Source of the DNA: a bacterium
GTDB taxonomy: Bacteria > UBA9089 > JAHJRX01
Direction: 5' to 3'
DNA length: 41,187 nucleotides
NCBI GenBank assembly: GCA_018830565.1
Contig: JAHJRX010000054.1
Coordinates: 1-41,187, forward strand
Position 1 is the stretch's first letter; each line of letters begins with the position of its first letter. The notes beneath the pieces are model-generated. The model worked only from the letters and a program-made list of their open reading frames with translations, had not been told where the DNA came from and searched no databases. Both the position numbers and the translations under genes were made by a program. Positions 10,528 through 31,279 of the stretch are shown here, piece after piece.

Positions 10528-11370
10528 ATGTCTCTGGCAGATGAAATAAGCCAATGGATTAAGACTAAAGTAGAAGAAGCCAAGGCAAAAGGTGTTGTCG
10601 TTGGACTTAGTGGTGGCCTCGATTCTTCCGTAGTAGCTGCTTTAGTCAAAAAAGCGCTGGGAGATAATGTCTTAGGGCTAATCATGCCTTGTCAAAGCAA
10701 CCCCATAGATGAAGAAGATGCTTTACTGGTAGTCTCAAGATTAAATCTTAAGATAGAAAAAGTATCATTAGATGTTACCTACAGTAAGTTATTAGAAACG
10801 CTCCCTTTTGGTAATAAGTTAGCCTTGGCTAATTTAAAACCCAAGTTATTAGAAACGCTCCCTTTTGGTAATAAGTTAGCCTTGGCTAATTTAAAGCCCA
10901 AGTTATTAGAAACGCTCCCTTTTGGTAATAAGTTAGCCTTGGCTAATTTAAAACCAAGATTAAGAATGCTCATTTTATACTATTTTGCCAATAGTTTAAA
11001 CTACTTAGTAGCCGGCACCGGCAATAAATCAGAGATTATGGCTGGTTATTTTACTAAGTATGGAGATGGAGGGGTGGACATCTTACCTATTGGAGGATTA
11101 TTGAAGACAGAGGTAAGAGCCTTAGCCAAGGAATTCAATCTTCCAAAAAAAGTCTTAGAAAAAGCACCTACCGCTGGATTATGGCCAGAACAAACAGATG
11201 AAGATGAGTTAGGCCTCACTTATCATGACTTGGATGAAATCTTAAAGAGATTAGAGTCTAATGAAATCACCAATTTACCTCAAAAATTGGTGATTAAAGT
11301 TAAAAAATTAGTAGAAATTTCGCAGCATAAGAGAATGTTACCCTTGGTATTTAAACAAGATCTAAGTTAA
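10528..11370 (+). CDS. nadE: NH3-dependent NAD+ synthetase NadE with an internal triplication
   Basis: This protein amidates deamido-NAD with ammonia. The ATP pyrophosphatase loop LSGGLDSS is at residues 27-34, and GTGNKSEIMAGYFTKYGDGG and LWPEQTDEDELG are the usual downstream motifs. There is no glutaminase domain, so ammonia is the likely nitrogen donor. At 280 residues it is longer than the usual 240-250 because a 19-residue segment (LLETLPFGNKLALANLKPK) occurs three times in tandem at about 87-143. Removing two copies gives a normal length of 242 and restores the family pattern NLKPRLRM. AGAGG is upstream of the ATG. Whether the expanded enzyme is active is unknown. Confidence 0.93.
   Translation: MSLADEISQWIKTKVEEAKAKGVVVGLSGGLDSSVVAALVKKALGDNVLGLIMPCQSNPIDEEDALLVVSRLNLKIEKVSLDVTYSKLLETLPFGNKLALANLKPKLLETLPFGNKLALANLKPKLLETLPFGNKLALANLKPRLRMLILYYFANSLNYLVAGTGNKSEIMAGYFTKYGDGGVDILPIGGLLKTEVRALAKEFNLPKKVLEKAPTAGLWPEQTDEDELGLTYHDLDEILKRLESNEITNLPQKLVIKVKKLVEISQHKRMLPLVFKQDLS
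10786..10956 (+). repeat. Three tandem 57-bp copies inside nadE
   Basis: The units lie at 10786-10842, 10843-10899 and 10900-10956. They differ only in the last few bases (AAACCC, AAGCCC, AAACCA). Each is 19 codons, so the frame is kept. Such near identity argues for very recent expansion by slippage or unequal recombination. Confidence 0.95.
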
Positions 11371-18770: not shown

Positions 18771-20216
18771 TTAAGTATTCTTAAGTGTCTCTATCAACTC
18801 GCCCTTGGCATTATAAATATCTGCCTTGACCGGGATTGTTCCGTTCAGATTGTGCGTGGCACATGAAAAACACGGATCATAGGCTCGAATAGCCATCTCT
18901 ATCTTATTCATAATCCCCTGGTCATACTTACCATCCTTAATAAGGTTCATCGCTGCCCACTTGACCGACATATTGATGGGTGCATTGTTATGGGTAGTGC
19001 CAACGATGATATTTACGGCCGTAACCATCCCATTTTCATCAGTGGTGTAATCATGGATGAGTGTTCCCCGTGGTGCTTCAACTACACCCACACCTCTACC
19101 GGCTACCGGTTTTAAGGCAAGTCGTATATCAGGTGAGGTAATATCCGGATCATTCAAAAGCTCAACGGCATGTTCTGCGGCATACAACATCTCTATCAAC
19201 CTTGCCCAGTGGTGTAACAGGGTAAGTTGAGCCGGTCGGCCAAAGTTTGCTCTCCATTCCTCAAACTCTACCTGAGCTAAAGGTGTTGCCAGTTTATCCG
19301 CAACATTCATTCTGGCTAAGGCATTTACCCGATATATCCCTACAGGGTTATCCATGTCCATAGAGAATCCGCCGGCCTTTTTGTCATAAGGGAACTTGAG
19401 GTATGTCCATGGCTCCACATGCTCGGCGATATAATCTAAGTAATCTTTTGGTTCAAAGTCTTCATAACTGCCATCCTTTTTCATCATCCGCAGTTTCCCA
19501 TTATACAGGTTCATGGCTCCGTCATCATCAACCGTACCCAGAAAGCCGGTTTCAATAGGTGCATACGACTTTACCAAATCCAGGTATGGTGGAAAGATAT
19601 TCTTTTTAGCAAAGTCCATGGCAAACTTAGCAAACTCAAGGCACTCATTTGCCATTTCCTTAAGTTTAACCACCTCATCCTTAGTAATTGGTTTGCTCCA
19701 ACCACCAGGGCAAGCAGCATCTGGATGGATAGCCTTACCGGCCATTATTTGAGTCATCATCTGGGCTGTCCATCTTATTTTCACCACTGCTTTAGCAATA
19801 TCCGGAACCTTGCCCACAATACCGATAACATTCCTTACGGTATAATCTGCCTCCGGTCCCATAACAAAATCCGGTCCGGAGAGGATAAAGAAGTGAAGCA
19901 CATGAGAGTGGATGAAATGAGCCATATAGGCAAGTTCACGAATCTTTTTAGCAGCTGACGGTATATCAACCCCAAAGACAGCATCTGTTGCCTTAGCACT
20001 GGCTAAGTGATGTGCCCACGGGCAAACGCCGCATATTCTCGGTACAATTCTTGGTATTTCCTCTATTGGCCTGCCGGTACAGAACTTCTCAAAACCACGC
20101 AATTCGACTACATTTACATGAGTATTAGCCACATTGCCGGCATCATCGAGTTGAATAGTAATCTTAGCGTGGCCTTCAATCCTTGTTACTGGTGCTATAG
20201 TTATTGTTTTTGCCAT
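18771..20216 (-). CDS. mvhA: [NiFe] hydrogenase large subunit, MvhA type
   Basis: This 481-residue subunit carries the Ni-Fe active site of a group 3 cytosolic hydrogenase. The proximal motif RICGVCPWAHH puts Cys62 and Cys65 as ligands, and the distal motif DPCFSCATH puts Cys449 and Cys452. TRIEGHAKI near the start is the usual L0 motif. A tail of about 26 residues follows the last motif; whether a maturation protease removes it cannot be told. It is the last gene of the operon, five bases after mvhG, with AGGT seven bases before the ATG. No hyp maturation genes are in the window. Confidence 0.95.
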   Translation of the reverse strand: MAKTITIAPVTRIEGHAKITIQLDDAGNVANTHVNVVELRGFEKFCTGRPIEEIPRIVPRICGVCPWAHHLASAKATDAVFGVDIPSAAKKIRELAYMAHFIHSHVLHFFILSGPDFVMGPEADYTVRNVIGIVGKVPDIAKAVVKIRWTAQMMTQIMAGKAIHPDAACPGGWSKPITKDEVVKLKEMANECLEFAKFAMDFAKKNIFPPYLDLVKSYAPIETGFLGTVDDDGAMNLYNGKLRMMKKDGSYEDFEPKDYLDYIAEHVEPWTYLKFPYDKKAGGFSMDMDNPVGIYRVNALARMNVADKLATPLAQVEFEEWRANFGRPAQLTLLHHWARLIEMLYAAEHAVELLNDPDITSPDIRLALKPVAGRGVGVVEAPRGTLIHDYTTDENGMVTAVNIIVGTTHNNAPINMSVKWAAMNLIKDGKYDQGIMNKIEMAIRAYDPCFSCATHNLNGTIPVKADIYNAKGELIETLKNT

Positions 20217-20221
20217 TTTAA

Positions 20222-21151
20222 TTACCTCCCACCCATTCCGGGTCTAAGTCTTCCTTGTGCCCCAATAAACCTATTGAATGTTGGTGCTCTATCCACAATC
20301 TCCCTTGGATTTAACCCGATAGATGATAATGCCCCCATCATATCGACCATAGGATTTGCCCCTTCACGAATTGGACCATAGCAACCACGACAGGACATAT
20401 ATGCCTTAATACATCTTGGCATTTTTTCACTACCACCGCAACCGGACATTGTTGCCGGCCCCTGACATAGAAAGCCTTGCTCCATAAAGCAACGCACTTC
20501 ACTTAAAGGTTGGCCAGGGGTGAACTCAACCGATTCCAGTGGCCTCTTGATAGCAGTAACTGCCTTTTTCTCTCGCTTTGTCGGGCATTCATCACAGACC
20601 GAGCGTTCTGTTAGCTTAAATTCTTTCCCCTCTAACAGGCAGGTCAATGCCTCGGCTAATAACTCTGGTGTGGTTGGACATCCAGGAAGTTTTATGTCCA
20701 CATTGACTACCTCGCTGACCGCATAAACCCGCTCTTCCATAGCAGGAATCTCTTGTGTTGGTGTTTGCCCTGCATCTGTACTTGGGGTATCCTGATACAC
20801 AAGTTTAGTAATATCAGCTACGGTACAAAGATTGTTCAGCGCAGGAATTCCACCGTAGGTGGCGCATGCCCCAACCGTAATCAAGGTTTTGCATTTTCTA
20901 CGCATCTCTTCCGCTATATGCCTGTTTTCTTTATTCCGAACACTACCGGAAATAAGCCCTACATCTGCCTCTGGAATCTCTAACTTTTCCCGCTCACCCA
21001 TCTGTCCATAATACTTATGGTCCATAATAACCGGCATATGGACAAACTCTAATTTTGGTAACAAATCGAGCAACGGCTCTCCAATATCAAGTAATGTTAC
21101 CTCACATCCGCCACAAGTAGCTAACCATTCTTCAGCAACCTTAACAGCCAT
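20222..21151 (-). CDS. mvhG: [NiFe] hydrogenase small subunit, MvhG type
   Basis: This small subunit (309 residues from the chosen start) passes electrons from the Ni-Fe site through Fe-S clusters. The proximal cluster motif CGGCE (Cys13, Cys16), GACATYGG and LPGCPTTPE are visible, and further Cys-rich motifs (CGGSEKMPRC and CRGCYGP) provide ligands for additional clusters. A frame opens at a GTG at 21160, but that GTG lies within the ribosome binding site AAGGAGGTG. The ATG at 21151 with eight-base spacing is the better start. It pairs with MvhA and, through MvhD, with HdrA. Confidence 0.94.
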   Translation of the reverse strand: MAVKVAEEWLATCGGCEVTLLDIGEPLLDLLPKLEFVHMPVIMDHKYYGQMGEREKLEIPEADVGLISGSVRNKENRHIAEEMRRKCKTLITVGACATYGGIPALNNLCTVADITKLVYQDTPSTDAGQTPTQEIPAMEERVYAVSEVVNVDIKLPGCPTTPELLAEALTCLLEGKEFKLTERSVCDECPTKREKKAVTAIKRPLESVEFTPGQPLSEVRCFMEQGFLCQGPATMSGCGGSEKMPRCIKAYMSCRGCYGPIREGANPMVDMMGALSSIGLNPREIVDRAPTFNRFIGAQGRLRPGMGGR

Positions 21152-21180
21152 TAGTTCCACCTCCTTAAAATTTGTAATAA

Positions 21181-21212
21181 CCCGCTCTACCAGAGCAAGT
21201 CTGTTCAGCGGG
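21181..21212 (-). other. Hairpin between the 64-residue gene and mvhG
   Basis: CCCGCT (21181-21186) can pair with AGCGGG (21207-21212), and GCTCT with AGAGC (21184-21196) forms a competing smaller hairpin. It lies in the 93-base leader of mvhG and may affect mRNA stability or the ratio of the hydrogenase subunits. This role is inferred. Confidence 0.4.
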
Positions 21213-21225
21213 GATATGTTTAACC

Positions 21226-21270
21226 GTCAGACTTGTCGGACTGGTCAGACTTGTCAGACTTGGTCAGACA
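21226..21270. repeat. Five tandem 9-bp units, GTCAGACTT
   Basis: Five near-identical units of GTCAGACTT follow one another, one with an extra G. The right end encodes the last residues and stop (21254-21256) of the 64-residue protein, so the repeat has shaped its C-terminus. Confidence 0.85.
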
Positions 21271-21448
21271 TTATTTCTCTCCGCGTATAGACTAAATACT
21301 TACCGTCCTCTTCAATCATTCTGGCTTCAAAATCTTGTGCCTTGTAACCAGGCAGTATTTTCTTTGCTTCAATATCAGTTTCGTAAATCTTGCCATCCCA
21401 CATAAATTTCCGGTCATCAAATTTTCTTGCAATCTCTGGATTCATCAT
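21254..21448 (-). CDS. 64-residue protein of the mvh cluster, function unknown
   Basis: I do not recognise this small soluble protein. It has no cysteine and no membrane segment. It is rich in charged and aromatic residues (MWDGKIYETDIEAKK, KYLVYTRREI). It sits 11 bases after mvhD and shares a strong GAGGTGAG site that touches the first ATG; the second ATG at 21445 gives slightly better spacing. Its position among tightly packed subunit genes suggests an accessory or small structural subunit of the hydrogenase complex. The last four residues (SDQV) fall in a tandem repeat and may replace an original tail. Confidence 0.6.
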   Translation of the reverse strand: MMNPEIARKFDDRKFMWDGKIYETDIEAKKILPGYKAQDFEARMIEEDGKYLVYTRREIMSDQV

Positions 21449-21459
21449 CTCACCTCAGA

Positions 21460-21876
21460 TTAAAATGTCCTGAATGGACTTGGGCCCAACTGTTTTACCG
21501 TTTCGGTCATTTCCTGCATTACCTGAGCAAACTTTGGTCCTTCAGAGGCAGAGATCCACTCAAGTCTAAATCGCTCCGGTTCTATACCAAAGTCTTCAAG
21601 CATCAGACCAATAGCGTCTGCCCTGGATTCTGCTTTTTTGTTTCCTTCAAGATAGTGGCAATCCCCAATATGACAGCCACAGATCAGGACACCATCTGCG
21701 CCTTTAGTTAAGGCATCTACGACTAAATTTGGATGGACCATACCGGAACACATTACCCGGATAATCCGAATATTGGTGGGGTATTGCAACCTGGACACAC
21801 CGGCAAGATCAGCGCCTGTATAACTACACCAATTACAGCAAAAGGCGATTATTAATGGTTCAAACTCATTTGACAT
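21460..21876 (-). CDS. mvhD: MvhD, 2Fe-2S linker between hydrogenase and HdrA
   Basis: This 138-residue protein of the MvhD/FlpD family transfers electrons from the hydrogenase small subunit to HdrA. The conserved cysteines are in FCCNWCSYTGAD (Cys13, 14, 17), VMCSGM (Cys43) and LICGCHIGDCHY (Cys66, 68, 73), the usual pattern for the single 2Fe-2S cluster and its surroundings. GGAGG lies ten bases before the ATG. It begins 18 bases after the large HdrA fusion, matching the usual hdrA-mvhD adjacency. Confidence 0.94.
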   Translation of the reverse strand: MSNEFEPLIIAFCCNWCSYTGADLAGVSRLQYPTNIRIIRVMCSGMVHPNLVVDALTKGADGVLICGCHIGDCHYLEGNKKAESRADAIGLMLEDFGIEPERFRLEWISASEGPKFAQVMQEMTETVKQLGPSPFRTF

Positions 21877-21894: not shown

Positions 21895-24800
21895 TTAAGA
21901 TACTGGTTGCAATGCCGCCTCAACCATAGCCGAAAGCATTTCCGGCTTAAAGTGCTGCACATAAATTCCCTTCTTCGGACATGTTGCCATGCACACACCA
22001 CAACCCTTACATTTAGCCTCATTTACCTCTACTGTCTTTTTGATGGCCCCCTCCTTCATATATTCTATCAGGGTTATGGCTTTATAAGGACAGGGGTCAA
22101 TACAATAGGCACAACCATCGCAGTTGGCATCAACGACAAAGGATAAAGCCGCCTCAAGTTCAAGTTCATTTTTGGAAAGTATGGTAGCGGCACGACCGGC
22201 AGCACCACTTGCCTGTGAGATTGATTCCGACACATCCTTTGGGCAATGGGCAAGTCCTGCCATATAGATACCATCCGTAGCAAAATCAATCGGCCTTAGC
22301 TTTATATGTGCCTCTAAGAAAAATCCATTTTGATTAAGTGGCACCTTAAGCATTTGAGCCAGCTCTTTATTTCCGGGCTCGGCAACTATTGCCGAAGATA
22401 ATACAACCTGGTTAGTATCGATTAAAAGCCATTGGTCAAGCAACAAATCCCGGACCTTGACCCTTAACCCATCTCCTTCTGAATAAACCTCTGGCTTCTC
22501 ATCATCATTATAGCGGATAAAGATTACCCCTGCTTCCCGTGCCTGGGAATAATAGTCCTCGCGTAAACCATAAGTTCGTATATCCCGATACAGGATGTAG
22601 ACCTCTGTTTGGGGGTCTTTCTCCTTTAACTTCAGTGCATTCTTTATGGCCTGACTACAGCAGACACGACTGCAATATGATCTGTCCTTCTCCCGCGAGC
22701 CAACACACTGAATCATAACTATGGATTTCGAATTTCGAATTTCGAATTTCGAATTTGACAAATTTTCTTCCAATTCCCGCTGAGTAATTACCCGTTTATC
22801 CTGTCCATGCAGGTATTCTGTTGGTTTATATTCTGTTGCACCGGTAGCCACAATTATTATTCCATGCTCAATTTCAATCTCCTTACCATTAGAATTAAGC
22901 GTAGATTTAAAGTTGCCCAGGAAACCATCTACTTTTGAGACAGAGGTATTCAGATAAAGCTTAATCTTATCTGATTGAGTAACACAAGCAATCATACCTT
23001 CGAGTAATTGTTTTGGATTACTGTCATCAAGCAGATATTGAATCCTTCTCAGATTGCCGCCCAGCTCTTTTTCTTTTTCCACCAAATGGACTAAAAATCC
23101 TTGAGCGGCTAAGTCAATAGCTGATTGCATTCCCGCCAGTCCACCACCTATAACCAATGCCGCCTGATTTACCTTTATTGTATTTCCATAAAGTGGTTCT
23201 AAAAGCCGTGCCTTGGCAATGGCCATGCGGACAAGGTCTTTTGCCTTTCTTGTGGCTTTCTCAGGTTCATTTGCATGGACCCAACTGCATTGGTCACGGA
23301 CATTTGCCATTTCAAATAGATATGGGTTAAGCCCTGCCTGACGAATGGTATTACGAAATAGCGGCTCATGGGTTCTTGGGGTGCAAGCGGCTACCACTAC
23401 CCGATTGAGATTATGTTCCTTTATCTTCTCTATAATCGCTTGCTGGGTATCGGAAGAGCAGGTATAAAGTTTATTCTCGGCATGGATAACATCAGGTAAT
23501 GTTCTGGCATATTCAATTACCCGTGGGACATCAACTACACCGGCTATATTTATCCCGCAGTGGCAGATAAAGACACCAATCCTCGGAGATTGTCCCGATA
23601 TATCAACCTCAGGTGGATATTCTTTATCCGTAATTAAACTACCCCTTGATTCGGCTAATAGCCCGCCTGCCTTTCCCGCTGAGGCTGAGGCTTGCATGAC
23701 TGTTTCCGGTATATCCTTGGGAGACTCAAACACACCTGCCGTATAAACCCCGGGTATGTTTGTTTCCATGGGGGAAAAGCTATGTGTCCGGCAGAAACCA
23801 TATTCATCTAAATTAATTCCAAGTCGGCTTGCCAGTTCCTTTGTTCCTTTCTTTGGTACCATTCCTACAGAAAGGACAACCATATCAAACTCCTCTTCGG
23901 CAACCTTATTTCCATTCTCATCCTCATATCGCAGAATCAGATTTTTTGTTTCTTCAATTTCTTTTATCTCTGCTACCCTTGAGCGAACAAACCGAACACC
24001 GTATTCATCCTTTGCCCGATTATAATATTCCTCAAACCCTTTACCAAAGGTGCGCATATCCATATAAAATATAGTTGCATCCAGCCCTTCATGAGAATGT
24101 TCTTTAGCAATAATAGCCTCTTTGACCGCATAAGTACAACAGACAGATGAGCAATAGGGGTTACCTTTATTTATATCCCGGGAGCCAACGCATTGTATCC
24201 AGGCAACCTTTTTAGGTGCATTGTCGTCTGATAGTCGGTGCAAGTGTCCGCCAAATGGTCCTGAGGCGGATAATATCCGCTCGAATTGGAGTGAGGTAAC
24301 CACATTTTGGTATTTGCCATAGCCATATTCACCCCTTATTTTCGGCTCAAATTTATCATATCCAGGGGTTAAAATAACCGCACCAACATCAATATCGAGC
24401 TTTTCTTCTTTCTGTTCGTAATCAATGGCACCGGCCTGACAAACGACTTCGCATATCCCACATTTATCTTTGAGCATGTGGACACAGGAATCATGGTCAA
24501 TTACCGGCCAATTAGGAACACCTTGAGGATAGAAGATGTGAATAGGAGAACGGCTACTTAGTTCTTCATCAAATTTAGAGAGGATGGGAACGGGTTTTCT
24601 CTTTGCCCCTGAAACATCCTCGATGGTAATCCTTTTGGTGGGACAGATAGAAACACATGCCCCACAGAGATGGCATATATCGGATTGCTTACCAAACGGT
24701 GAACTTACTCTTCGCTTTGACCCACGATTAATAAAGCCCATCGCTCCTATGCCCATTCGTTCATTACACATCCGCACGCATAACCCACATAAGATACAAC

Positions 24801-25167
24801 TCATATCTTTTTTTGGTTTAAGTCTCAGTTTAGTTACCCCAATTTCTTTAGCTAATTTCTGAATTTCTGTCGAATCAGGGCATCGGGTCAACAGGAGTTC
24901 TGCCATTATCCGCCGGGTCTTTATGACCCGCTCAGAGTGGGTCTGGATAACCAGTCCTTCCTGAACCGGATACAAACAAGAGGCAACAATATCACTGTAA
25001 TTGCCATCTTTAATCTCCACAATACAAAGCCGGCAAGCACCATAAGATGAAAGTGCTTTATGATGGCAGAGAGTAGGAATCTTTATACCTGACCTCTGAG
25101 CGGCTTCAAGTATCTTCGTTCCTTCCTCTATCTGTATCTTTTGGTCGTTAATAGTTAAAGTAATCAT
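21895..25167 (-). CDS. Fusion: NuoG-like Fe-S domain + HdrA C-half + complete HdrA
   Basis: This 1090-residue chain has three parts. Residues 1-185 are NuoG/HydA-like: a 2Fe-2S domain (Cys34, 45, 48, 64), then two 4Fe-4S motifs (Cys124, 127, 130, 134 and 165, 168, 171, 175); the NuoG His-cluster is absent. Residues about 205-515 match the second half of HdrA, from FYPQGVPNWPVID through a Cys motif (228, 236, 239, 243), EYGYGKYQNV and CVGSRD, but they lack the FAD-binding GxGxxG. Residues 528-1090 are a full HdrA: FICHCG, GGGLAGM (674-680) for FAD, CVGSRE, and two C-terminal ferredoxin motifs (Cys1016-1026, 1053-1064). The missing first half is in the fusion at 28079-28945. An in-frame repeat adds SNSKFEIRNSKS at 804-815. 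Confidence 0.9.
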   Translation of the reverse strand: MITLTINDQKIQIEEGTKILEAAQRSGIKIPTLCHHKALSSYGACRLCIVEIKDGNYSDIVASCLYPVQEGLVIQTHSERVIKTRRIMAELLLTRCPDSTEIQKLAKEIGVTKLRLKPKKDMSCILCGLCVRMCNERMGIGAMGFINRGSKRRVSSPFGKQSDICHLCGACVSICPTKRITIEDVSGAKRKPVPILSKFDEELSSRSPIHIFYPQGVPNWPVIDHDSCVHMLKDKCGICEVVCQAGAIDYEQKEEKLDIDVGAVILTPGYDKFEPKIRGEYGYGKYQNVVTSLQFERILSASGPFGGHLHRLSDDNAPKKVAWIQCVGSRDINKGNPYCSSVCCTYAVKEAIIAKEHSHEGLDATIFYMDMRTFGKGFEEYYNRAKDEYGVRFVRSRVAEIKEIEETKNLILRYEDENGNKVAEEEFDMVVLSVGMVPKKGTKELASRLGINLDEYGFCRTHSFSPMETNIPGVYTAGVFESPKDIPETVMQASASAGKAGGLLAESRGSLITDKEYPPEVDISGQSPRIGVFICHCGINIAGVVDVPRVIEYARTLPDVIHAENKLYTCSSDTQQAIIEKIKEHNLNRVVVAACTPRTHEPLFRNTIRQAGLNPYLFEMANVRDQCSWVHANEPEKATRKAKDLVRMAIAKARLLEPLYGNTIKVNQAALVIGGGLAGMQSAIDLAAQGFLVHLVEKEKELGGNLRRIQYLLDDSNPKQLLEGMIACVTQSDKIKLYLNTSVSKVDGFLGNFKSTLNSNGKEIEIEHGIIIVATGATEYKPTEYLHGQDKRVITQRELEENLSNSKFEIRNSKSIVMIQCVGSREKDRSYCSRVCCSQAIKNALKLKEKDPQTEVYILYRDIRTYGLREDYYSQAREAGVIFIRYNDDEKPEVYSEGDGLRVKVRDLLLDQWLLIDTNQVVLSSAIVAEPGNKELAQMLKVPLNQNGFFLEAHIKLRPIDFATDGIYMAGLAHCPKDVSESISQASGAAGRAATILSKNELELEAALSFVVDANCDGCAYCIDPCPYKAITLIEYMKEGAIKKTVEVNEAKCKGCGVCMATCPKKGIYVQHFKPEMLSAMVEAALQPVS
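22726..22756. repeat. (CGAATTT)x4 microsatellite inside hdrA
   Basis: Four perfect copies of the 7-base unit CGAATTT lie at 22729-22756 with TTT before them. They encode the insert SNSKFEIRNSKS just before MIQCVGSR in the second HdrA. The same type of unit is recalled as a common interspersed repeat in other genomes. Confidence 0.9.
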
Positions 25168-25184
25168 TTTTCTACCTCTATTTT

Positions 25185-25298
25185 TTAGGTGTCACTCATC
25201 AGGTCTGCACCGCAGGCTATCCTTACCTCTGCTTGAGAATTTTCACTTTTCTCAATAACCTTAGCCTCTAAAATCTCTATGATTTTTTTAATATTCAT
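25185..25298 (-). pseudogene. Truncated DRTGG-domain gene
   Basis: A frame of 37 residues starts at an ATG one base after the ORF6N stop. It begins MNIKKIIEILEAKVIE and ends RIACGADLMSDT and stop. From memory, DRTGG-domain proteins beside nuoE, nuoF and hydA genes of anaerobes (about 115 residues) start this way, with DLMSDVLAF at this point. Everything after DLMSD is missing and the next gene starts 17 bases later, so this looks like a deletion remnant. It is too short for a folded domain. Confidence 0.65.
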
Positions 25299-25299
25299 C

Positions 25300-25854
25300 C
25301 TACTTTTTTCCATTTTTTGTTGTTTTTTTTATGCTGTGCTTGAATTTCAACACAGCAAAATTCAGCTCAATAGTTGTTTCGCTCTCATTTGATACCAGAT
25401 TGTCATCAAGAATTTCAGCAATGATTTCACCGCTCTTTTGAAGCAAGTTTTGTTTTTGGCTATCGTCCTGTACATTTGACAGTGCTTTAATATTTCGTGA
25501 AAGGTTTCTAATTTTTGCAAAAGTTTCAATAATGGCTATTGTTGTTTGGGTTGCTTGCGGGCTTTTGAGAATCGTCGCTAACATATACAAGCCTTTTTCG
25601 GTAAAGGCACTTGGAATCTTAACTTTCCCTCCTTTGATTGAAGTCGAAAATTTCGACTTCAATGCAGCCCATTCATTTTTATCAAGTTCCAATGTATAAC
25701 CACCCGGAAACTTATCTGGATTGTTCTTGGTAGCTTCATTAATTCTTTTTGTCTCAACTGCATATAATTCTGCTACATCACTATCAAGAATAACTTTTTG
25801 ACCCCTTAAATTTATGATTTTGTTTTCAATTTCTTCAAGTTTTACGATATCCAT
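25300..25854 (-). CDS. ORF6N-domain protein (phage antirepressor-like)
   Basis: This 184-residue protein has an ORF6N domain in its first 100 residues: INLRGQKVILDSDVAELYAV, then the pattern NPDKFPGGYTLEL and AFTEKGLYMLATIL. ORF6N domains come from phage and mobile DNA and bind DNA. The C-terminal 80 residues are helical and charged. GAGAGG lies before the ATG. It is out of place among redox subunit genes, 35 bases after nuoF and directly before the DRTGG remnant. It is probably an insertion carried along in the operon, though a regulatory role cannot be excluded. Confidence 0.85.
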   Translation of the reverse strand: MDIVKLEEIENKIINLRGQKVILDSDVAELYAVETKRINEATKNNPDKFPGGYTLELDKNEWAALKSKFSTSIKGGKVKIPSAFTEKGLYMLATILKSPQATQTTIAIIETFAKIRNLSRNIKALSNVQDDSQKQNLLQKSGEIIAEILDDNLVSNESETTIELNFAVLKFKHSIKKTTKNGKK

Positions 25855-25889
25855 GTTTTTCCTCTCTTCAATACAAAAGTTTGAACTCC

Positions 25890-27683
25890 CTATGTTATAA
25901 TTACCGCCTCAAATTTACATATCTCACGACATGCCCCGCATTTAATACATTTATCTCTGTCTATAATCTGAGGCTGTTTCTTCTCGCCGGAAATAGCCGA
26001 AGACGGGCATACCTTGACACATAGCAAACAAGCCTTGCACCGCTCAGAGTCGATTGAATATTTAATCAATGTCTTACAGACACCTGCAGGACACCTCTTT
26101 TCTTTGATGTGGGCAATATATTCATTACGAAAATATCGCAGGGTAGAAAGCACGGAATTTGGAGCTGACTGTCCCAATCCACACAGAGAGGCATCTTTGA
26201 CCATAGAGCCTAACTCTTCTAAAAACTCAATATCTTCCTCTATTGCCTTACCTTCACATATCTTGGTTACAACCTCAAGCATGGCGTTTATTCCCTCCCG
26301 GCAGGAGGTACATTTTCCACAGGACTCCCCATTAAGGAAGGTAAGGAAGTATTTAGTTATATCCACCATACAGGTGTTTTCATCCATAACAATCATGCCT
26401 CCAGAGCCCATTATCGCCCCAACTTTGGTTAGCTCCTCATAGTCTATCGGCATATCAAGGAGGCTTTCCGGAATACATCCACCAGAGGGACCACCAATCT
26501 GAACGGCTTTAAACTTCTTATTATTCTGAATGCCGCCACCAATTTCATAGACCATCTTGCGGAGGGTAATGCCCATAGGCACCTCAACCAATCCGGCATT
26601 GTTTATCTTCCCGGCTAAGGAAAAGACCTTTGTCCCTTTACTCCCTTGCGTACCAATCTCCGCAAACCATTTTGCCCCTCGATTGATAATAGCCGGGACA
26701 TTTGCCCATGTTTCTACATTATTGATATTAGTAGGTTTGCCCCATAAACCTGATTGGGCCGGAAATGGTGGACGTTGTTTTGGAGCAACATCTCCTCCCT
26801 CAATAGAGGCAATCAGGGATGTCTCCTCACCAGAGACAAAAGCCCCTGCTCCCCTGAATATTTTCACCTCGAAATTAAAGCCAGCCCCTAAAATATCTTC
26901 ACCCAACAGCCCATAATCCCTGGCTTGTTCAATAGCTCGCTCCATCCTCTTTATGGCCAGGGGATACTCAATTCTTATGTAGATATAGCCATGGGAGGCA
27001 CCCATGGCATAAGCACCAATGACCATTCCTTCAAGAATCGAGTGTGGGTCTGCCTCCATAATTGACCTATCCATATAAGCCCCTGGGTCTCCCTCATCTG
27101 CGTTACAAATAATATACTTTGGTTCACCTTCAGCATTTCGACAAAACTCCCATTTTCTCCCGGTTGGAAATCCTGCACCTCCTCTGCCACGAAGTCCGGA
27201 TGCCTTTATCTCTTCTATCACCTGCTCAGGAGTCATTGAAGTTAGAACTTTCGCCAATGCCTTATATCCATCCCGAGCAATATACTCCTCAATCTTTTCC
27301 GGGTCTATGAGCCCTCGATTACGAAGGGTAATCAACCTCTGGTCACGGAAAAAGACAATATCCTTCATCCGGGCAATGGGTTGTTCCTCTTTTTTGGGAA
27401 CATACATCAATGACTTTACCGGTCTTCCCTTCAGGAAATGCTCCTCAACAAGATGAGGAATATGTTCAACCTTGACCTGCTGATAGAATATGCCATCCGG
27501 CTGAACAATCATAATTGGACCGGCATTACAGAAACCATCACAGCCGGTAGGAATAACCGCTACTTTGTCTTCTAAACCCCTTTTTTTGACCTCTTCCTCT
27601 AATGCTTTCATTATTTCTAATGAGCCTTTGGCCACACACTCTGTTCCTGTGCAAAGCATAATATTAGTTCTATATTCTTTCAT
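25890..27683 (-). CDS. NuoF/HydB-type NADH-oxidising flavoprotein
   Basis: This 597-residue protein should oxidise or reduce NAD(H) at FMN. Residues 1-95 are a thioredoxin-like 2Fe-2S domain (Cys11, 16, 48, 52). The NuoF core follows with GRGGAGFPTGRKWEF (166-180) for FMN, NADEGDPGAYMDR and GAGAFVSGEETSL for NADH. The 4Fe-4S ligands are Cys455, 458, 461 and 501. The C-terminus adds two ferredoxin motifs (Cys549-559 and 579-589). This layout matches HydB of bifurcating hydrogenases rather than respiratory NuoF. It starts directly at the stop of the small 2Fe-2S gene, so it is coupled to it. Confidence 0.94.
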   Translation of the reverse strand: MKEYRTNIMLCTGTECVAKGSLEIMKALEEEVKKRGLEDKVAVIPTGCDGFCNAGPIMIVQPDGIFYQQVKVEHIPHLVEEHFLKGRPVKSLMYVPKKEEQPIARMKDIVFFRDQRLITLRNRGLIDPEKIEEYIARDGYKALAKVLTSMTPEQVIEEIKASGLRGRGGAGFPTGRKWEFCRNAEGEPKYIICNADEGDPGAYMDRSIMEADPHSILEGMVIGAYAMGASHGYIYIRIEYPLAIKRMERAIEQARDYGLLGEDILGAGFNFEVKIFRGAGAFVSGEETSLIASIEGGDVAPKQRPPFPAQSGLWGKPTNINNVETWANVPAIINRGAKWFAEIGTQGSKGTKVFSLAGKINNAGLVEVPMGITLRKMVYEIGGGIQNNKKFKAVQIGGPSGGCIPESLLDMPIDYEELTKVGAIMGSGGMIVMDENTCMVDITKYFLTFLNGESCGKCTSCREGINAMLEVVTKICEGKAIEEDIEFLEELGSMVKDASLCGLGQSAPNSVLSTLRYFRNEYIAHIKEKRCPAGVCKTLIKYSIDSERCKACLLCVKVCPSSAISGEKKQPQIIDRDKCIKCGACREICKFEAVIIT

Positions 27684-28067
27684 TTAACCTACCCTTTCAC
27701 TGCCGACTGATAGGGCGTATTCACTCACTATCTTACCACCCAGGACATGTTCCTCAAATACCCTTTTAATCTTTTCCGGAGTTATATCCACATACTTAAC
27801 AGGAGGTTCATCTTTTAATTCTACGGTTATCATAGGTTCCCGACTACAAAGCCCTGCACAACTTGAGGTCATAAGCAGGACATCCTTAATCCCTTTCTGG
27901 TCTATCTCTTCCATTAATGCTTTCATGATTCTCCTTGCCCCGGCGGCTATACCGCAGGTACTCATATGAACAATGACTCTGGCTCGACCAGCCCCTTCAC
28001 GAAGAAGGATAGTTCTTTTTGTCTCTTCACGAATTTTATCTAAATCCGCAGGTTTTATTTTTGGCAT
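27684..28067 (-). CDS. Thioredoxin-like 2Fe-2S ferredoxin (NuoE/HydC-adjacent type)
   Basis: This 127-residue protein has a helical N-terminus, then VHMSTCGIAAGARRIMKAL with Cys38 and SSCAGLCSREPM with Cys70 and Cys74. That is the pattern of small 2Fe-2S proteins encoded between nuoE and nuoF homologues in bifurcating complexes. Only three of the four usual ligand cysteines are seen, which I recall as common in this subgroup. AAGGAG is well placed before the ATG. It should carry electrons between the NuoE domain and NuoF. Confidence 0.85.
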   Translation of the reverse strand: MPKIKPADLDKIREETKRTILLREGAGRARVIVHMSTCGIAAGARRIMKALMEEIDQKGIKDVLLMTSSCAGLCSREPMITVELKDEPPVKYVDITPEKIKRVFEEHVLGGKIVSEYALSVGSERVG

Positions 28068-28078
28068 CTTGCAACTCC

Positions 28079-28945
28079 TTAGTGATATTCCTTAAGTATT
28101 TCTTCCACCTTGGCCTGGGTAACATGTCCATATACTTCTTCATTGACCATCAACGCCGGTGCCTTACTACAACAGCCAAGACAAGCAATCGTTTCCAGAC
28201 TGTATTTCAAATCTTTGGTTGTCTCACCTGCTTTAATGCCTAACTCCCTTTCAAAGGCAGACAGGATAGACGGTCCCCCCTTAATGTAGCAGGCTGTTCC
28301 CATGCAAACACTGATGGTATAAAGTCCCCGTGGAGTAAACTTAAAGGCATTATAAAATGTAGCAATTTGATAGACCATACTCAACGGAAGGTCTAACTCC
28401 TCAGAGACATACCTTAAGATATGTTCGGGCAGATACCGATACTCAATATTGACATCATGAAGAACAGGCAACAGGTTTCCTTTTTCGTCTTTATAGGCAT
28501 CTATTATCTTCTTCATCCTTTCAAGATCTTCCGGTGAAAGCTCTACCTGAACCTTTTCCTCATGTTCCATGTAAATTTTATACTTGACCGGGCAATTTTC
28601 GACACATACGCCACAACCGGTACACTTTGACGAATCTATATATCTTGGCTTCTTACTTATGGAGACGGTGAATTTGCCCGCTTCTCCCTTAAGTCCTTCT
28701 ACTTCACCATAAGTTATTAATTCGATATTGGGATGTCCGGCGACATCAACCAATCTTGGTGCCAGGGTACACATAGCACAGTCATTAGTAGGGAAGGTTT
28801 TATCAAGTTGAGCCATTCTGCCGCCAATGGCAGGTTCTTTCTCAAGTAGATAGACCTTAAATCCCGTTTCTGCCAGGTCAAGTGATGCCGCAATACCGGC
28901 AATACCACCACCAACGACTAATACCGCACCGGTTTTCTTAGCCAT
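28079..28945 (-). CDS. Fusion: HdrA N-half (FAD, ferredoxin) + NuoE
   Basis: Residues 1-125 of this 288-residue protein are the first half of HdrA: FAD-binding GGGIAGI (12-18), [21 protein letters not shown] (Cys56, Cys59) and a ferredoxin motif [12 protein letters not shown] (Cys108, 111, 114, 118). They stop just where the HdrA part of the 1090-residue protein begins. Residues 132-288 are a complete Nuo[36 protein letters not shown] and the 2Fe-2S ligands Cys214, 219, 255 and 259. The start has GGAG seven bases upstream, inside the HEPN gene, which it overlaps by eight bases. The two gene pieces presumably rebuild one HdrA unit in trans. Confidence 0.9.
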
Positions 28946-29369
28946 CTATATTCTCCTTTGAAAATAAATATGCCTCTAATTTATCCACAATCCCTTTAGT
29001 ATCTTCTAATGCTTCTTCCATATCCTCTTTGGTATAAGAATCTAAAGACCACGATGAATCTATTCCTAAATATAAAGCCTTATCCCTTTCTGGTGAAAGT
29101 GACTCTACAACTGTATTCAATTCATCTGAAAATGGGAAGGATGGATAAAGGCTCTTAAACCTGGGAATCTTTAAATAATGTTTTTTGGGTATTTTCTCAC
29201 CTTTTAAGATAATTCCAGCTACACAAGAAGATTCAAGTGCATGATATATATGAAAGATAGCTCCCTCAAAATATTCCTTTTCTAAAAGAAAATTTGCCAT
29301 TTCAAGATGACGATTTGCTGTCTTAAAACAACTTTTTGCTTGTTCTTCTTTACAAAAAATTCTTTCCAT
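28938..29369 (-). CDS. HEPN-domain protein (MNT partner)
   Basis: This 143-residue protein is all-helical, with the HEPN pattern [20 protein letters not shown] and [14 protein letters not shown]. The catalytic Rx4-6H motif of HepT-like RNases is not obvious; [11 protein letters not shown] is the nearest region. It overlaps the MNT gene upstream by 20 bases and the hdrA-N/nuoE fusion downstream by eight. Such pairs act as toxin-antitoxin systems in which the MNT protein modifies the HEPN partner. Here activity is uncertain, because the toxin motif seems to be missing. Confidence 0.78.
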
Positions 29370-29694
29370 AAATCAACCTTCCTTCTCGGCGAATATTCTC
29401 AAACAGTAATGAGTTATCTTTTAAATTCTTAAAGGTTTCATAATCATAGATGATTGGAGAAAAAAGAATATTATATTTGCCAAATAGATTACCGAATACC
29501 TGTTTGGCAAATAATTTAGTCACCTTATAAGAAGAGCCTAACCTTCTTTTGGTTATTATTAAAAGGTCAATATCCCCTATCTTTTTTGCACCTCTTGCCA
29601 AGGAGCCAAATAAGACAATGGAGAGTATCTCACCCTTAAAATCTTCCTCCAATTTGTTTTTAGCCTCTTCTAAAATATCATTAATCTCCTTCAT
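29350..29694 (-). CDS. MNT-type minimal nucleotidyltransferase
   Basis: This 114-residue protein has the nucleotidyltransferase signature LFGSLARGAKKIGDIDLLII, with GS and the metal-binding DID both intact. It is the antitoxin-type partner of the HEPN gene that overlaps its end. In known MntA/HepT pairs the MNT protein adds AMP to the HEPN toxin. The pair sits between hdrB and the hdrA-N/nuoE gene, downstream of a short inverted-repeat element, and so looks like an insertion in the operon. Confidence 0.85.
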   Translation of the reverse strand: MKEINDILEEAKNKLEEDFKGEILSIVLFGSLARGAKKIGDIDLLIITKRRLGSSYKVTKLFAKQVFGNLFGKYNILFSPIIYDYETFKNLKDNSLLFENIRREGRLIYGKNFL

Positions 29695-29804: not shown

Positions 29805-30704
29805 TCAATTCACCTGTGACAGAGCATTAGATTCACCTCGTTGAACGGCTGAAACCAATTTATCAGCACAGACTAAGTTTTTATGCAGTCCCAACTTTTT
29901 GGGTTCAAATCCAAATGCCAGCCCCAGCAATTGGGTAAAATAGACCACTGGTATATCAAGCTTCACATTGGACACAGATTCCACCTTGGCATACAATGTT
30001 TCTAACGCCATCTGGCACATAGAACAAGCGGTGACTATGCACTGGGCTCCTATATCCTTGGCTGAAATCAGGATATTTTTAGTCATCTGGATGGTTAAGT
30101 CTTCGTTAGTCATCAGCAGGGAGCCGCCACAGCATTTTGTTTTGTAAGGAAAATTAAGGTTTTCTGCCCCTAAAGCCGTAACTATCTCACCCAAAGATTT
30201 TGGGTCTTCCGGATTATCAAACTGTGTCCTTCGTGAAGGTCGCACTAACAAACACCCATAATAAGCCGCTACCTTCAAACCAGCTAAGGGCTTTTTTATC
30301 CGTTCCTTTATTTTGTCCAGTCCAATGTCATTTATGATGATGTCCAATGGATGCTTTATTTTCAACTTATTTTCCGGAATCTCCTGTCCAATAATATCCT
30401 CTAATTTTGGTTTAATCTCCGGGTGAGCCATTAGCTCATCCTCTACCTTCAACAAATTTGATAAACAAGCAGGGCAGGGGACAACTATCTTTGTCCAATC
30501 TTTTGCCGCAATAGCCACATTTCGTGCAGATAAGGAAAGAGCCAGAAGGGGATTTACCGAAGATGCCTCTACCGCCCCACAGCAATTCCAGTCCTTTAAT
30601 TCTTCCAACTCAGCATCAAGGTTTGCAAATACTGCCTTTGTAGATAATTCATATTCCTTAGCGGTTGAATGAAGAGTGCAACCCGGATAATATCCTATGG
30701 TCAT
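29805..30704 (-). CDS. hdrB: Heterodisulfide reductase subunit B
   Basis: This 299-residue catalytic subunit has two CCG domains: Cys9, Cys41-42, Cys77/80 in the first and Cys151, Cys191-192, Cys227/230 in the second. These are the ligands of the paired non-cubane 4Fe-4S clusters that split disulfides in methanogens. In bacteria the HdrB substrate is usually unknown. The ATG overlaps the hdrC stop by four bases, with AAGGTAG before it, so the two are coupled. In the usual order hdrA would follow; here the MNT/HEPN pair intervenes. Confidence 0.94.
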   Translation of the reverse strand: MTIGYYPGCTLHSTAKEYELSTKAVFANLDAELEELKDWNCCGAVEASSVNPLLALSLSARNVAIAAKDWTKIVVPCPACLSNLLKVEDELMAHPEIKPKLEDIIGQEIPENKLKIKHPLDIIINDIGLDKIKERIKKPLAGLKVAAYYGCLLVRPSRRTQFDNPEDPKSLGEIVTALGAENLNFPYKTKCCGGSLLMTNEDLTIQMTKNILISAKDIGAQCIVTACSMCQMALETLYAKVESVSNVKLDIPVVYFTQLLGLAFGFEPKKLGLHKNLVCADKLVSAVQRGESNALSQVN

Positions 30705-31279
30705 TTTTCTACCTTCCTAAAGATTTCTCGGATCTTTTTTATCCCTTTAATTCGATGAGGCAAAAATGGCAACTTACCATGTTTTATCATTTCTATGCCT
30801 AATGGCATATAGCCTATCATTCCGGCAATGTCCCTCTTACCTAAGAAGAATTTACCCATCAGTTCCGGCTCCCAGACCCGGCCATATGCCTTAATTGAAT
30901 TGACAAACACCTTAGCAAATAAGGCACCTGGAGATTTTATCTTAATTTTACCCTTTTTAGCTTCCTCCAAGGCAATGTTTCGTATGGCATGAATGACCTC
31001 AACAAACCTGACATCCTGTGGACAACGTTCATAGCAGAGTGAACAACCGGCACATAACCAGATAAAATCAGACTCCAAGACCTCTTTTTTCATACCAAGT
31101 ATGGCCATACGGATAATTCGTCTGGGATTATACTGCTCATCAATCTCTCGGACAGAACACGAAGCAGAACATGTCCCACAACCATAGCAACGCATTATTT
31201 TCTCTCCACCAGACACAGCCGCAATCTCATATTTAAAGTTTGGCTCTAAGTTACTTACCTCAATTGCTTTTAATCCCAT
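30701..31279 (-). CDS. hdrC: Heterodisulfide reductase subunit C
   Basis: This 192-residue subunit has two 4Fe-4S motifs (Cys31, 34, 37, 41 and Cys76, 79, 82, 86) and relays electrons between HdrA and HdrB. It is soluble with no membrane segments, unlike HdrE-linked forms. It is the first gene of the operon, with a promoter at 31327-31356 and GGAG ten bases before the ATG. Confidence 0.93.
   Translation of the reverse strand: MGLKAIEVSNLEPNFKYEIAAVSGGEKIMRCYGCGTCSASCSVREIDEQYNPRRIIRMAILGMKKEVLESDFIWLCAGCSLCYERCPQDVRFVEVIHAIRNIALEEAKKGKIKIKSPGALFAKVFVNSIKAYGRVWEPELMGKFFLGKRDIAGMIGYMPLGIEMIKHGKLPFLPHRIKGIKKIREIFRKVEK

Follow-up and report, generated by a model that had tools for sequence, protein, structure and literature searches.

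HdrA cut within its inserted ferredoxin by a Bfu-type NADH module and probably reassembled in trans from two polypeptides

Organization of the locus

HdrA is an energy-saving enzyme of oxygen-free microbes and is normally one protein. In the 41,187-nucleotide contig JAHJRX010000054.1 of a bacterium of the GTDB lineage UBA9089 (the whole stretch is called the window hereafter), HdrA is encoded in two pieces, and a cassette of the NADH-dehydrogenase type stands on and between the cut ends. This arrangement had been put forward in an original prediction made from the letters of the window; the split is confirmed, and the observation is stronger than first claimed. The genes of the operon and the two junctions all lie on the minus strand.

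The two pieces were assigned from open reading frames (ORFs) and domain and profile matches. The N-piece (hdrA1-N::nuoE; 28079–28945; 288 residues) is composed of the Rossmann half of HdrA that binds flavin adenine dinucleotide (FAD) and the first [4Fe-4S] motif of the inserted ferredoxin (C108, C111, C114, and C118), followed from about residue 134 to residue 288 by NuoE/BfuC, as predicted. Residue C59 corresponds to Cys197 of MtHdrA. The C-piece (nuoG-N::hdrA1-C::hdrA2; 21895–25167; 1090 residues) starts with a NuoG/HydA-type domain with one [2Fe-2S] and two [4Fe-4S] motifs (residues 1 to about 188) and continues with the second half of HdrA1 (about 191–506), in which E296 and K349 correspond to E356 and K409, the catalytic residues close to N5 of the flavin. 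The HdrA1 unit has no N-terminal HdrA domain, as in the HdrA1 units of double chains. The rest of the C-piece (about 526–1090) is a second HdrA (HdrA2) with an N-terminal domain and C-terminal ferredoxins. It is complete in sequence, and the profile and 5odc_A matches bear out the earlier claim of a second full unit.

Between the pieces stand the small thioredoxin-like [2Fe-2S] protein (27684–28067; 127 residues; ORF and domain scan) and the nuoF-like BfuB/HydB (25890–27683; 597 residues; domain, profile, and structure-sequence matches) that had been expected there, together with an ORF6N-domain gene (25300–25854; ORF and domain scan), which had not and is not an enzyme part.

The operon encodes a full HdrABC-MvhAGD set. 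HdrB has two cysteine-rich CCG stretches (29805–30704) and HdrC has two [4Fe-4S] motifs (30701–31279); both, like the [2Fe-2S] adaptor MvhD/FlpD (21460–21876), were recognized by ORF and domain scan. The VhuG-like small subunit MvhG (20222–21160) and the VhuA-like large subunit MvhA (18771–20216) of the [NiFe]-hydrogenase were recognized by profile match. From 31279 to 18771, the order is hdrC, hdrB, a nucleotidyltransferase/HEPN pair, the N-piece, the [2Fe-2S] gene, the nuoF-like gene, the ORF6N gene, the C-piece, mvhD, mvhG, and mvhA. Neighboring enzyme genes mostly overlap or stand within tens of bases of each other; wider gaps precede mvhG (299 bases) and the C-piece (132 bases) and follow hdrB (110 bases).

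Several further features were observed in the window. The nucleotidyltransferase/HEPN pair (28938–29694) and the ORF6N gene (25300–25854) lie within the operon, and the HEPN gene and the start of the N-piece share 8 bases. The hydrogenase genes mvhD, mvhG, and mvhA (18771–21876) are 91–95% identical to those of genome G009, which is of another family (L125 and L150 compared), versus 71% for hdrB and 59% for the N-piece, a mosaic suggesting that the hydrogenase genes were transferred recently. Outside the operon, a NAD synthetase-like ORF (10528–11370) carries a 19-residue stretch, LLETLPFGNKLALANLKPK/R, in three tandem copies.

Site of the cut

HdrA is cut between the two [4Fe-4S] motifs of its inserted ferredoxin. 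On the NCBIfam HdrA2 profile (NF040770), the N-piece covers model positions 141–258 and the C-piece 253–562, followed by further HdrA from the second unit. On the solved HdrA of M. thermolithotrophicus (5odc_A), the N-piece covers residues 144–259 and the C-piece resumes at residue 257.

Profile alignments locate both junctions. On the N-side, HdrA homology ends at residues 119–124 and passes through a linker into NuoE (28574–28591); the earlier placement at 28,580 falls within the stretch of about 28,574–28,589. On the C-side, the junction runs from the CP of the last NuoG [4Fe-4S] motif (residue 176) to residues 191–192, where HdrA resumes (24592–24642). Homology restarts at about residue 191 (KPVPILSKFDEEL, nucleotide ~24,595), about 20 residues ahead of FYPQG, rather than at ~24560 as predicted. 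The last [4Fe-4S] motif of NuoG (CHLCGACVSICP) occupies the place of the second motif of HdrA itself, and hence both pieces bring a motif to the join.

The same picture emerges on a model of 32 uncut HdrA1 units (433 positions). Nearly all N-pieces end at model positions 121–129 and nearly all C-pieces start at 99–107. The C-side match opens with the last [4Fe-4S] motif of NuoG, followed by P-I/V-x-S-E-F-D, the stretch immediately after CP in uncut chains. These ends and the placement of the C-side motif indicate that HdrA is complete across the two pieces. The pieces join without the gap that was to be checked for, and they overlap by one cluster motif. As a possible hallmark of the split, an extended loop within the second ferredoxin motif was considered and rejected, because 17 of 35 uncut chains have it too.

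Recurrence of the split and natural variants

The same break was searched for in 84,980 species genomes, in which more than 40 loci carry it; with the loci of the window's own phylum added, the number of N-pieces is 51. By record names, the split arrangement occurs in more than 10 phyla, among them Cloacimonadota, KSB1, Spirochaetota, Fibrobacterota, Gemmatimonadota, Bipolaricaulota, Neomarinimicrobiota, Aminicenantes, Acidobacteriota, Planctomycetota, Sumerlaeota, and Desulfobacterota, with an uncultured archaeon and others. In the window's small phylum, the N-piece fusion is present in 7 of 19 genomes and full-length C-pieces in 7 genomes; in one genome (G010), the N-piece lies on a contig that ends just past nuoF. 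A full-length match was found in about 10 of the 386 genomes of a wide sample.

The genome that holds the window is a draft of 86 contigs, and chimeric junctions from assembly or binning would be one way to account for the break. The same junctions in many independent assemblies, including a record titled as a 4.8-Mb chromosome (L072, CP070696.1), exclude a junction error without recourse to reads. An artefact is thus rejected, its probability being practically negligible.

The two pieces are linked. The C-piece lies downstream on the same strand, 1.4–6.5 kb off, in 38 of the 51 N-piece loci, and in the other 13 the contig ends within 5.5 kb downstream of the N-piece. This linkage, which holds in every N-piece locus with enough sequence, bears on whether the N-half might partner another, uncut HdrA, such as the paralogue at G000:C83, instead of the C-piece of its own operon. 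Uncut paralogues do occur in the same genome (L133), and Cys197 is known to work across HdrA subunits (PMC9012536). However, one genome (G002) holds two N-pieces and two C-pieces, and the C-piece has no alternative source of the missing Rossmann half. Such a partnership is therefore very unlikely.

The split takes other forms as well. In seven loci, mostly from Desulfobacterota (L069, L071, L073, L075, L076, L078, and L079), the N-half is a frame of its own of about 125 codons, followed by stop codons and a separate nuoE. Each of these stand-alone halves has one in-frame UGA, at the Cys197 position; in L050 and L058, the UGA occurs together with the NuoE fusion. The UGA presumably encodes selenocysteine, and automatic annotation would miss such stand-alone genes. 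At L142:4150-6561, an HdrA frame is broken between two ORFs, possibly by another UGA at this position.

The original prediction described a cut double HdrA, which holds for the window. Three genomes (L119, L120, and L140) show the same cut point in an HdrA that is single, not double; in L119, the two pieces cover positions 1–262 and 256–637 of the HdrA model. The cut is therefore not tied to the double chain.

Uncut HdrA1 with a large insert (gap of about 495–575 residues) in the same ferredoxin domain was found in L127–L132 and 17 other loci (L084, L086, L090, L094, L095, L099, L102–L104, L106, L109–L112, L114, L115, and L118). In the three chains scanned (L128, L131, and L132), the insert is a GltD/NfnL-type flavoprotein, and the site is about 35 residues beyond the cut point. 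Archaeal examples of this variant have been described as type III HdrA (PMC12054007; PMC9012536); the insert-bearing chains here extend past those published cases, being mostly in bacteria and in double HdrA.

In L039, L040, and L059, nuoF and the C-piece are separated by a group of small genes, whose products carry CBS, histidine-kinase-like ATPase, and PHP domains (Pfam on L040).

Conservation and relatedness of the two halves

Conservation was counted over aligned relatives, leaving out positions not covered. In the N-half, GxGxxG is kept in 49/49, residue 197 is Cys or UGA in 50/50 (41 Cys and 9 UGA), and the four ferredoxin cysteines are kept in 51/51. In the C-half, the four ferredoxin cysteines, the cluster cysteines of the TrxR domain, E356, and K409 of the HdrA1 part are kept in 38/38. 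K409 of uncut HdrA2, by contrast, is kept in 21/30 only, indicating that the strict signature of a bifurcating flavin sits on the cut unit, not on the complete HdrA2.

These counts bear on the alternative that the HdrA segment attached to NuoE is a relic, serving as a small tether or ferredoxin only, with the C-piece working through HdrA2 and HdrA1 lacking flavin. The completeness of HdrA2 and the presence of a [4Fe-4S] motif on each piece at the join would fit this alternative, but neither the invariance of the split unit in GxGxxG, E356, and K409 beside the looser HdrA2 nor the survival of the N-half as a stand-alone UGA-containing gene would. We consider a relic improbable.

Distances between N-halves correlate with those between C-halves (r = 0.69 over 36 split loci, 1 in 2001 permutations, versus 0.76 in uncut chains), and both half-trees share clades, for example L052/L055 with uncut L081 and L119/L120 with L103/L106/L118. 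The correlation and the shared uncut neighbors reject an origin of the halves from different HdrA families and uphold the prediction of one family. The nearest uncut relative often differs between the halves, and the short N-half tree is weak evidence on its own.

The split label changes 12 times in the quick C-half tree and 11 times in the N-half tree, of which at least 6 and at least 3 are forced by starred branches, and a single origin of the split is not supported by these trees. The changes would reflect repeated origin, reversal, or transfer of the split. From the retained residues of both halves, the FAD site of HdrA1 is very likely rebuilt from two chains.

The NADH module

NuoF matches HydB of the bifurcating NiFe-hydrogenase of A. 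mobile (7t2r_B) over its full length and colinearly with 863 bits, versus 409 bits for complex I. It is likewise full-length and colinear with 7q4v_B, and the cysteines are present. NuoF carries the Bfu set: an N-terminal [2Fe-2S] motif, a flavin mononucleotide (FMN) domain, an N3-type cluster, the RCPAGVC motif, and two C-terminal [4Fe-4S] motifs. The Bfu family is recognized by those BfuB cluster motifs, which non-bifurcating homologues do not have (PMC9304861). In Type 2 of the Bfu family, BfuA has clusters A1, A2, and A4 and lacks A3 and A5. The BfuA-type part here has a [2Fe-2S] and two [4Fe-4S] motifs, and no His-Cys3 motif was recognized in it by eye. The reading of the cassette as NADH dehydrogenase thus stands as to its NuoE, NuoF, and NuoG types and is refined: by its sequence features it goes beyond a plain NADH dehydrogenase and is a putative bifurcating core of the HydB/Bfu type. 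Because NuoF has these features, the cassette would place a bifurcating module within the low-potential exit of HdrA.

It is also conceivable that the halves assemble and the module is merely a donor or acceptor, that is, a simple NADH dehydrogenase, with bifurcation at HdrA alone. NADH has been proposed as a simple mid-potential donor in type III HdrA with inserted GltD (PMC12054007). The full Bfu motif set and the colinearity with bifurcating HydB, set against the homologues that lack the motifs, make this doubtful, though less so than the other alternatives.

In three split systems (L046:4058-7390, L066:9243-12299, and L070:8870-12067), NuoF is fused C-terminally to a GltD/NfnL-like flavoprotein, which replaces the two C-terminal [4Fe-4S] motifs.

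Proposed assembly and electron transfer

We infer that HdrA1 is probably one flavoprotein made as two polypeptides, cut in the inserted ferredoxin, with a Bfu-type NADH module on both ends, that assembles in trans. The N-half carries NuoE, the C-half carries NuoG-N, and NuoF is encoded between them; a HydABC/Bfu-type module would thereby sit on both cut ends. Joined together, the two chains would rebuild HdrA1, the N-half supplying the FAD Rossmann loop and Cys/Sec197, and the C-half E356, K409, the cluster cysteines of the TrxR domain, and the remainder of the FAD site.

In classical 2[4Fe-4S] ferredoxins, each cluster is bound by three cysteines of one motif and the fourth cysteine of the other. 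If this sharing is valid for HdrA, both clusters of the split ferredoxin would bridge the chains, each taking cysteines from both. In addition, Cys197 of one HdrA ligates the cluster in the N-terminal domain of another HdrA (PMC9012536). Here the Cys197 equivalent is on the N-piece, and the N-terminal domain that it would serve in HdrA2 is on the C-piece.

The inserted ferredoxin is the low-potential exit of HdrA and a docking site for partners (PMC6019823, PMC12350162). The most likely machine would pass electrons from MvhAGD to the flavin of split HdrA and from there to HdrBC and the NADH core. Electrons from H2 would enter through MvhAGD and be bifurcated at the HdrA flavin. The high-potential electron would go to HdrC/HdrB and a further acceptor. 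The low-potential electron would go through the split ferredoxin and the NuoG-type clusters to the FMN/Fe-S core and on to NAD(H) and ferredoxin. The two couplings would be hard-wired in series, and the complex could work in either direction.

Some points weigh against this reading. AlphaFold models of the separate pieces are of medium confidence, with low predicted template modeling (pTM) scores of 0.45 and 0.50 and recognizable domains, and are silent on assembly; the C-half model superposes on HdrA at a root-mean-square deviation of ~15 Å. The last cluster motif of NuoG could replace the cluster of HdrA itself, in which case the motif of the N-half has another role. In genome G016 (88% complete), a C-piece has no N-piece or nuoF within 5.3 kb upstream.

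In its widest form, the reading has a flavin site and both ferredoxin clusters shared by two polypeptides, a second, mechanistically distinct bifurcating core (FMN/Fe-S) covalently at the low-potential exit, and two bifurcations in series, in at least 10 bacterial phyla and one contig named archaeal. We give it about even chances.

Relation to known systems and implications

Type II (double) HdrA of the A3/A4 class (PMC12054007, PMC9012536) also has two TrxR-like flavin units with an N-terminal domain on the second only, Cys197 complementarity, and HdrBC and MvhD as neighbors. In type II, however, both units are in one chain, whereas here the first is on two chains, cut in the ferredoxin. Type III HdrA (PMC12054007; HdrA 9–11 of ANME-1 in PMC9012536) likewise houses an NAD(P)H module in this ferredoxin domain, but as one GltD/NfnB domain within one uncut chain, whereas here a three-protein Bfu cassette splits the gene about 35 residues upstream. 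Domain and profile scans of the N-piece and the C-piece found no GltD in either; GltD is instead in the L127–L132 chains.

The class II benzoyl-CoA reductase Bam[(BC)2DEFGHI]2 (PMC9304861, PMC13328260) combines BfuABC (BamGHI) and the HdrA-like BamE in one complex, for which tandem bifurcation has been proposed. Its modules are described as separate polypeptides and occur with tungsten BamBC, whereas here BfuC and BfuA are fused to HdrA halves and a [NiFe]-hydrogenase is encoded instead. No tungsten BamB or BamC gene was recognized among the window ORFs inspected, with no family search aimed at them. The methanogen HdrABC-MvhAGD complex (5odc) has the same HdrA/B/C and MvhA/G/D gene set, but its HdrA is unsplit, and it has neither an additional HdrA2 nor an NADH module where the ferredoxin forms the exit.

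No description of a Nuo/Bfu-split HdrA was found in the literature searched, which does not include the principal review of HdrA modules (Appel et al. 2021, BBA). Possible cultured carriers are Desulfotignum phosphitoxidans, reported to have nuoEFG-mvhD-hdrA units (PMC4046663), and Desulfurivibrio dismutans, in which homologues of NuoEFG are reported next to hydrogenase genes (PMC12142623). Gene callers and whole-chain HdrA surveys will miss or mis-annotate both halves, above all the UGA-containing half of 125 residues.

Four families of bifurcating complexes are known, and HdrA and Bfu account for two of them. The recurrence of the split in more than 10 phyla suggests that two energy-coupling machines have merged into one, and NAD(P)H modules appear to favor the inserted ferredoxin domain of HdrA as a socket. 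If true, the covalent cut-and-spliced union of HdrA and Bfu would reveal the way in which electron-bifurcating modules are connected in series and would offer a simpler, tungsten-free test case for the 'double bifurcation' proposed for Bam-type systems.

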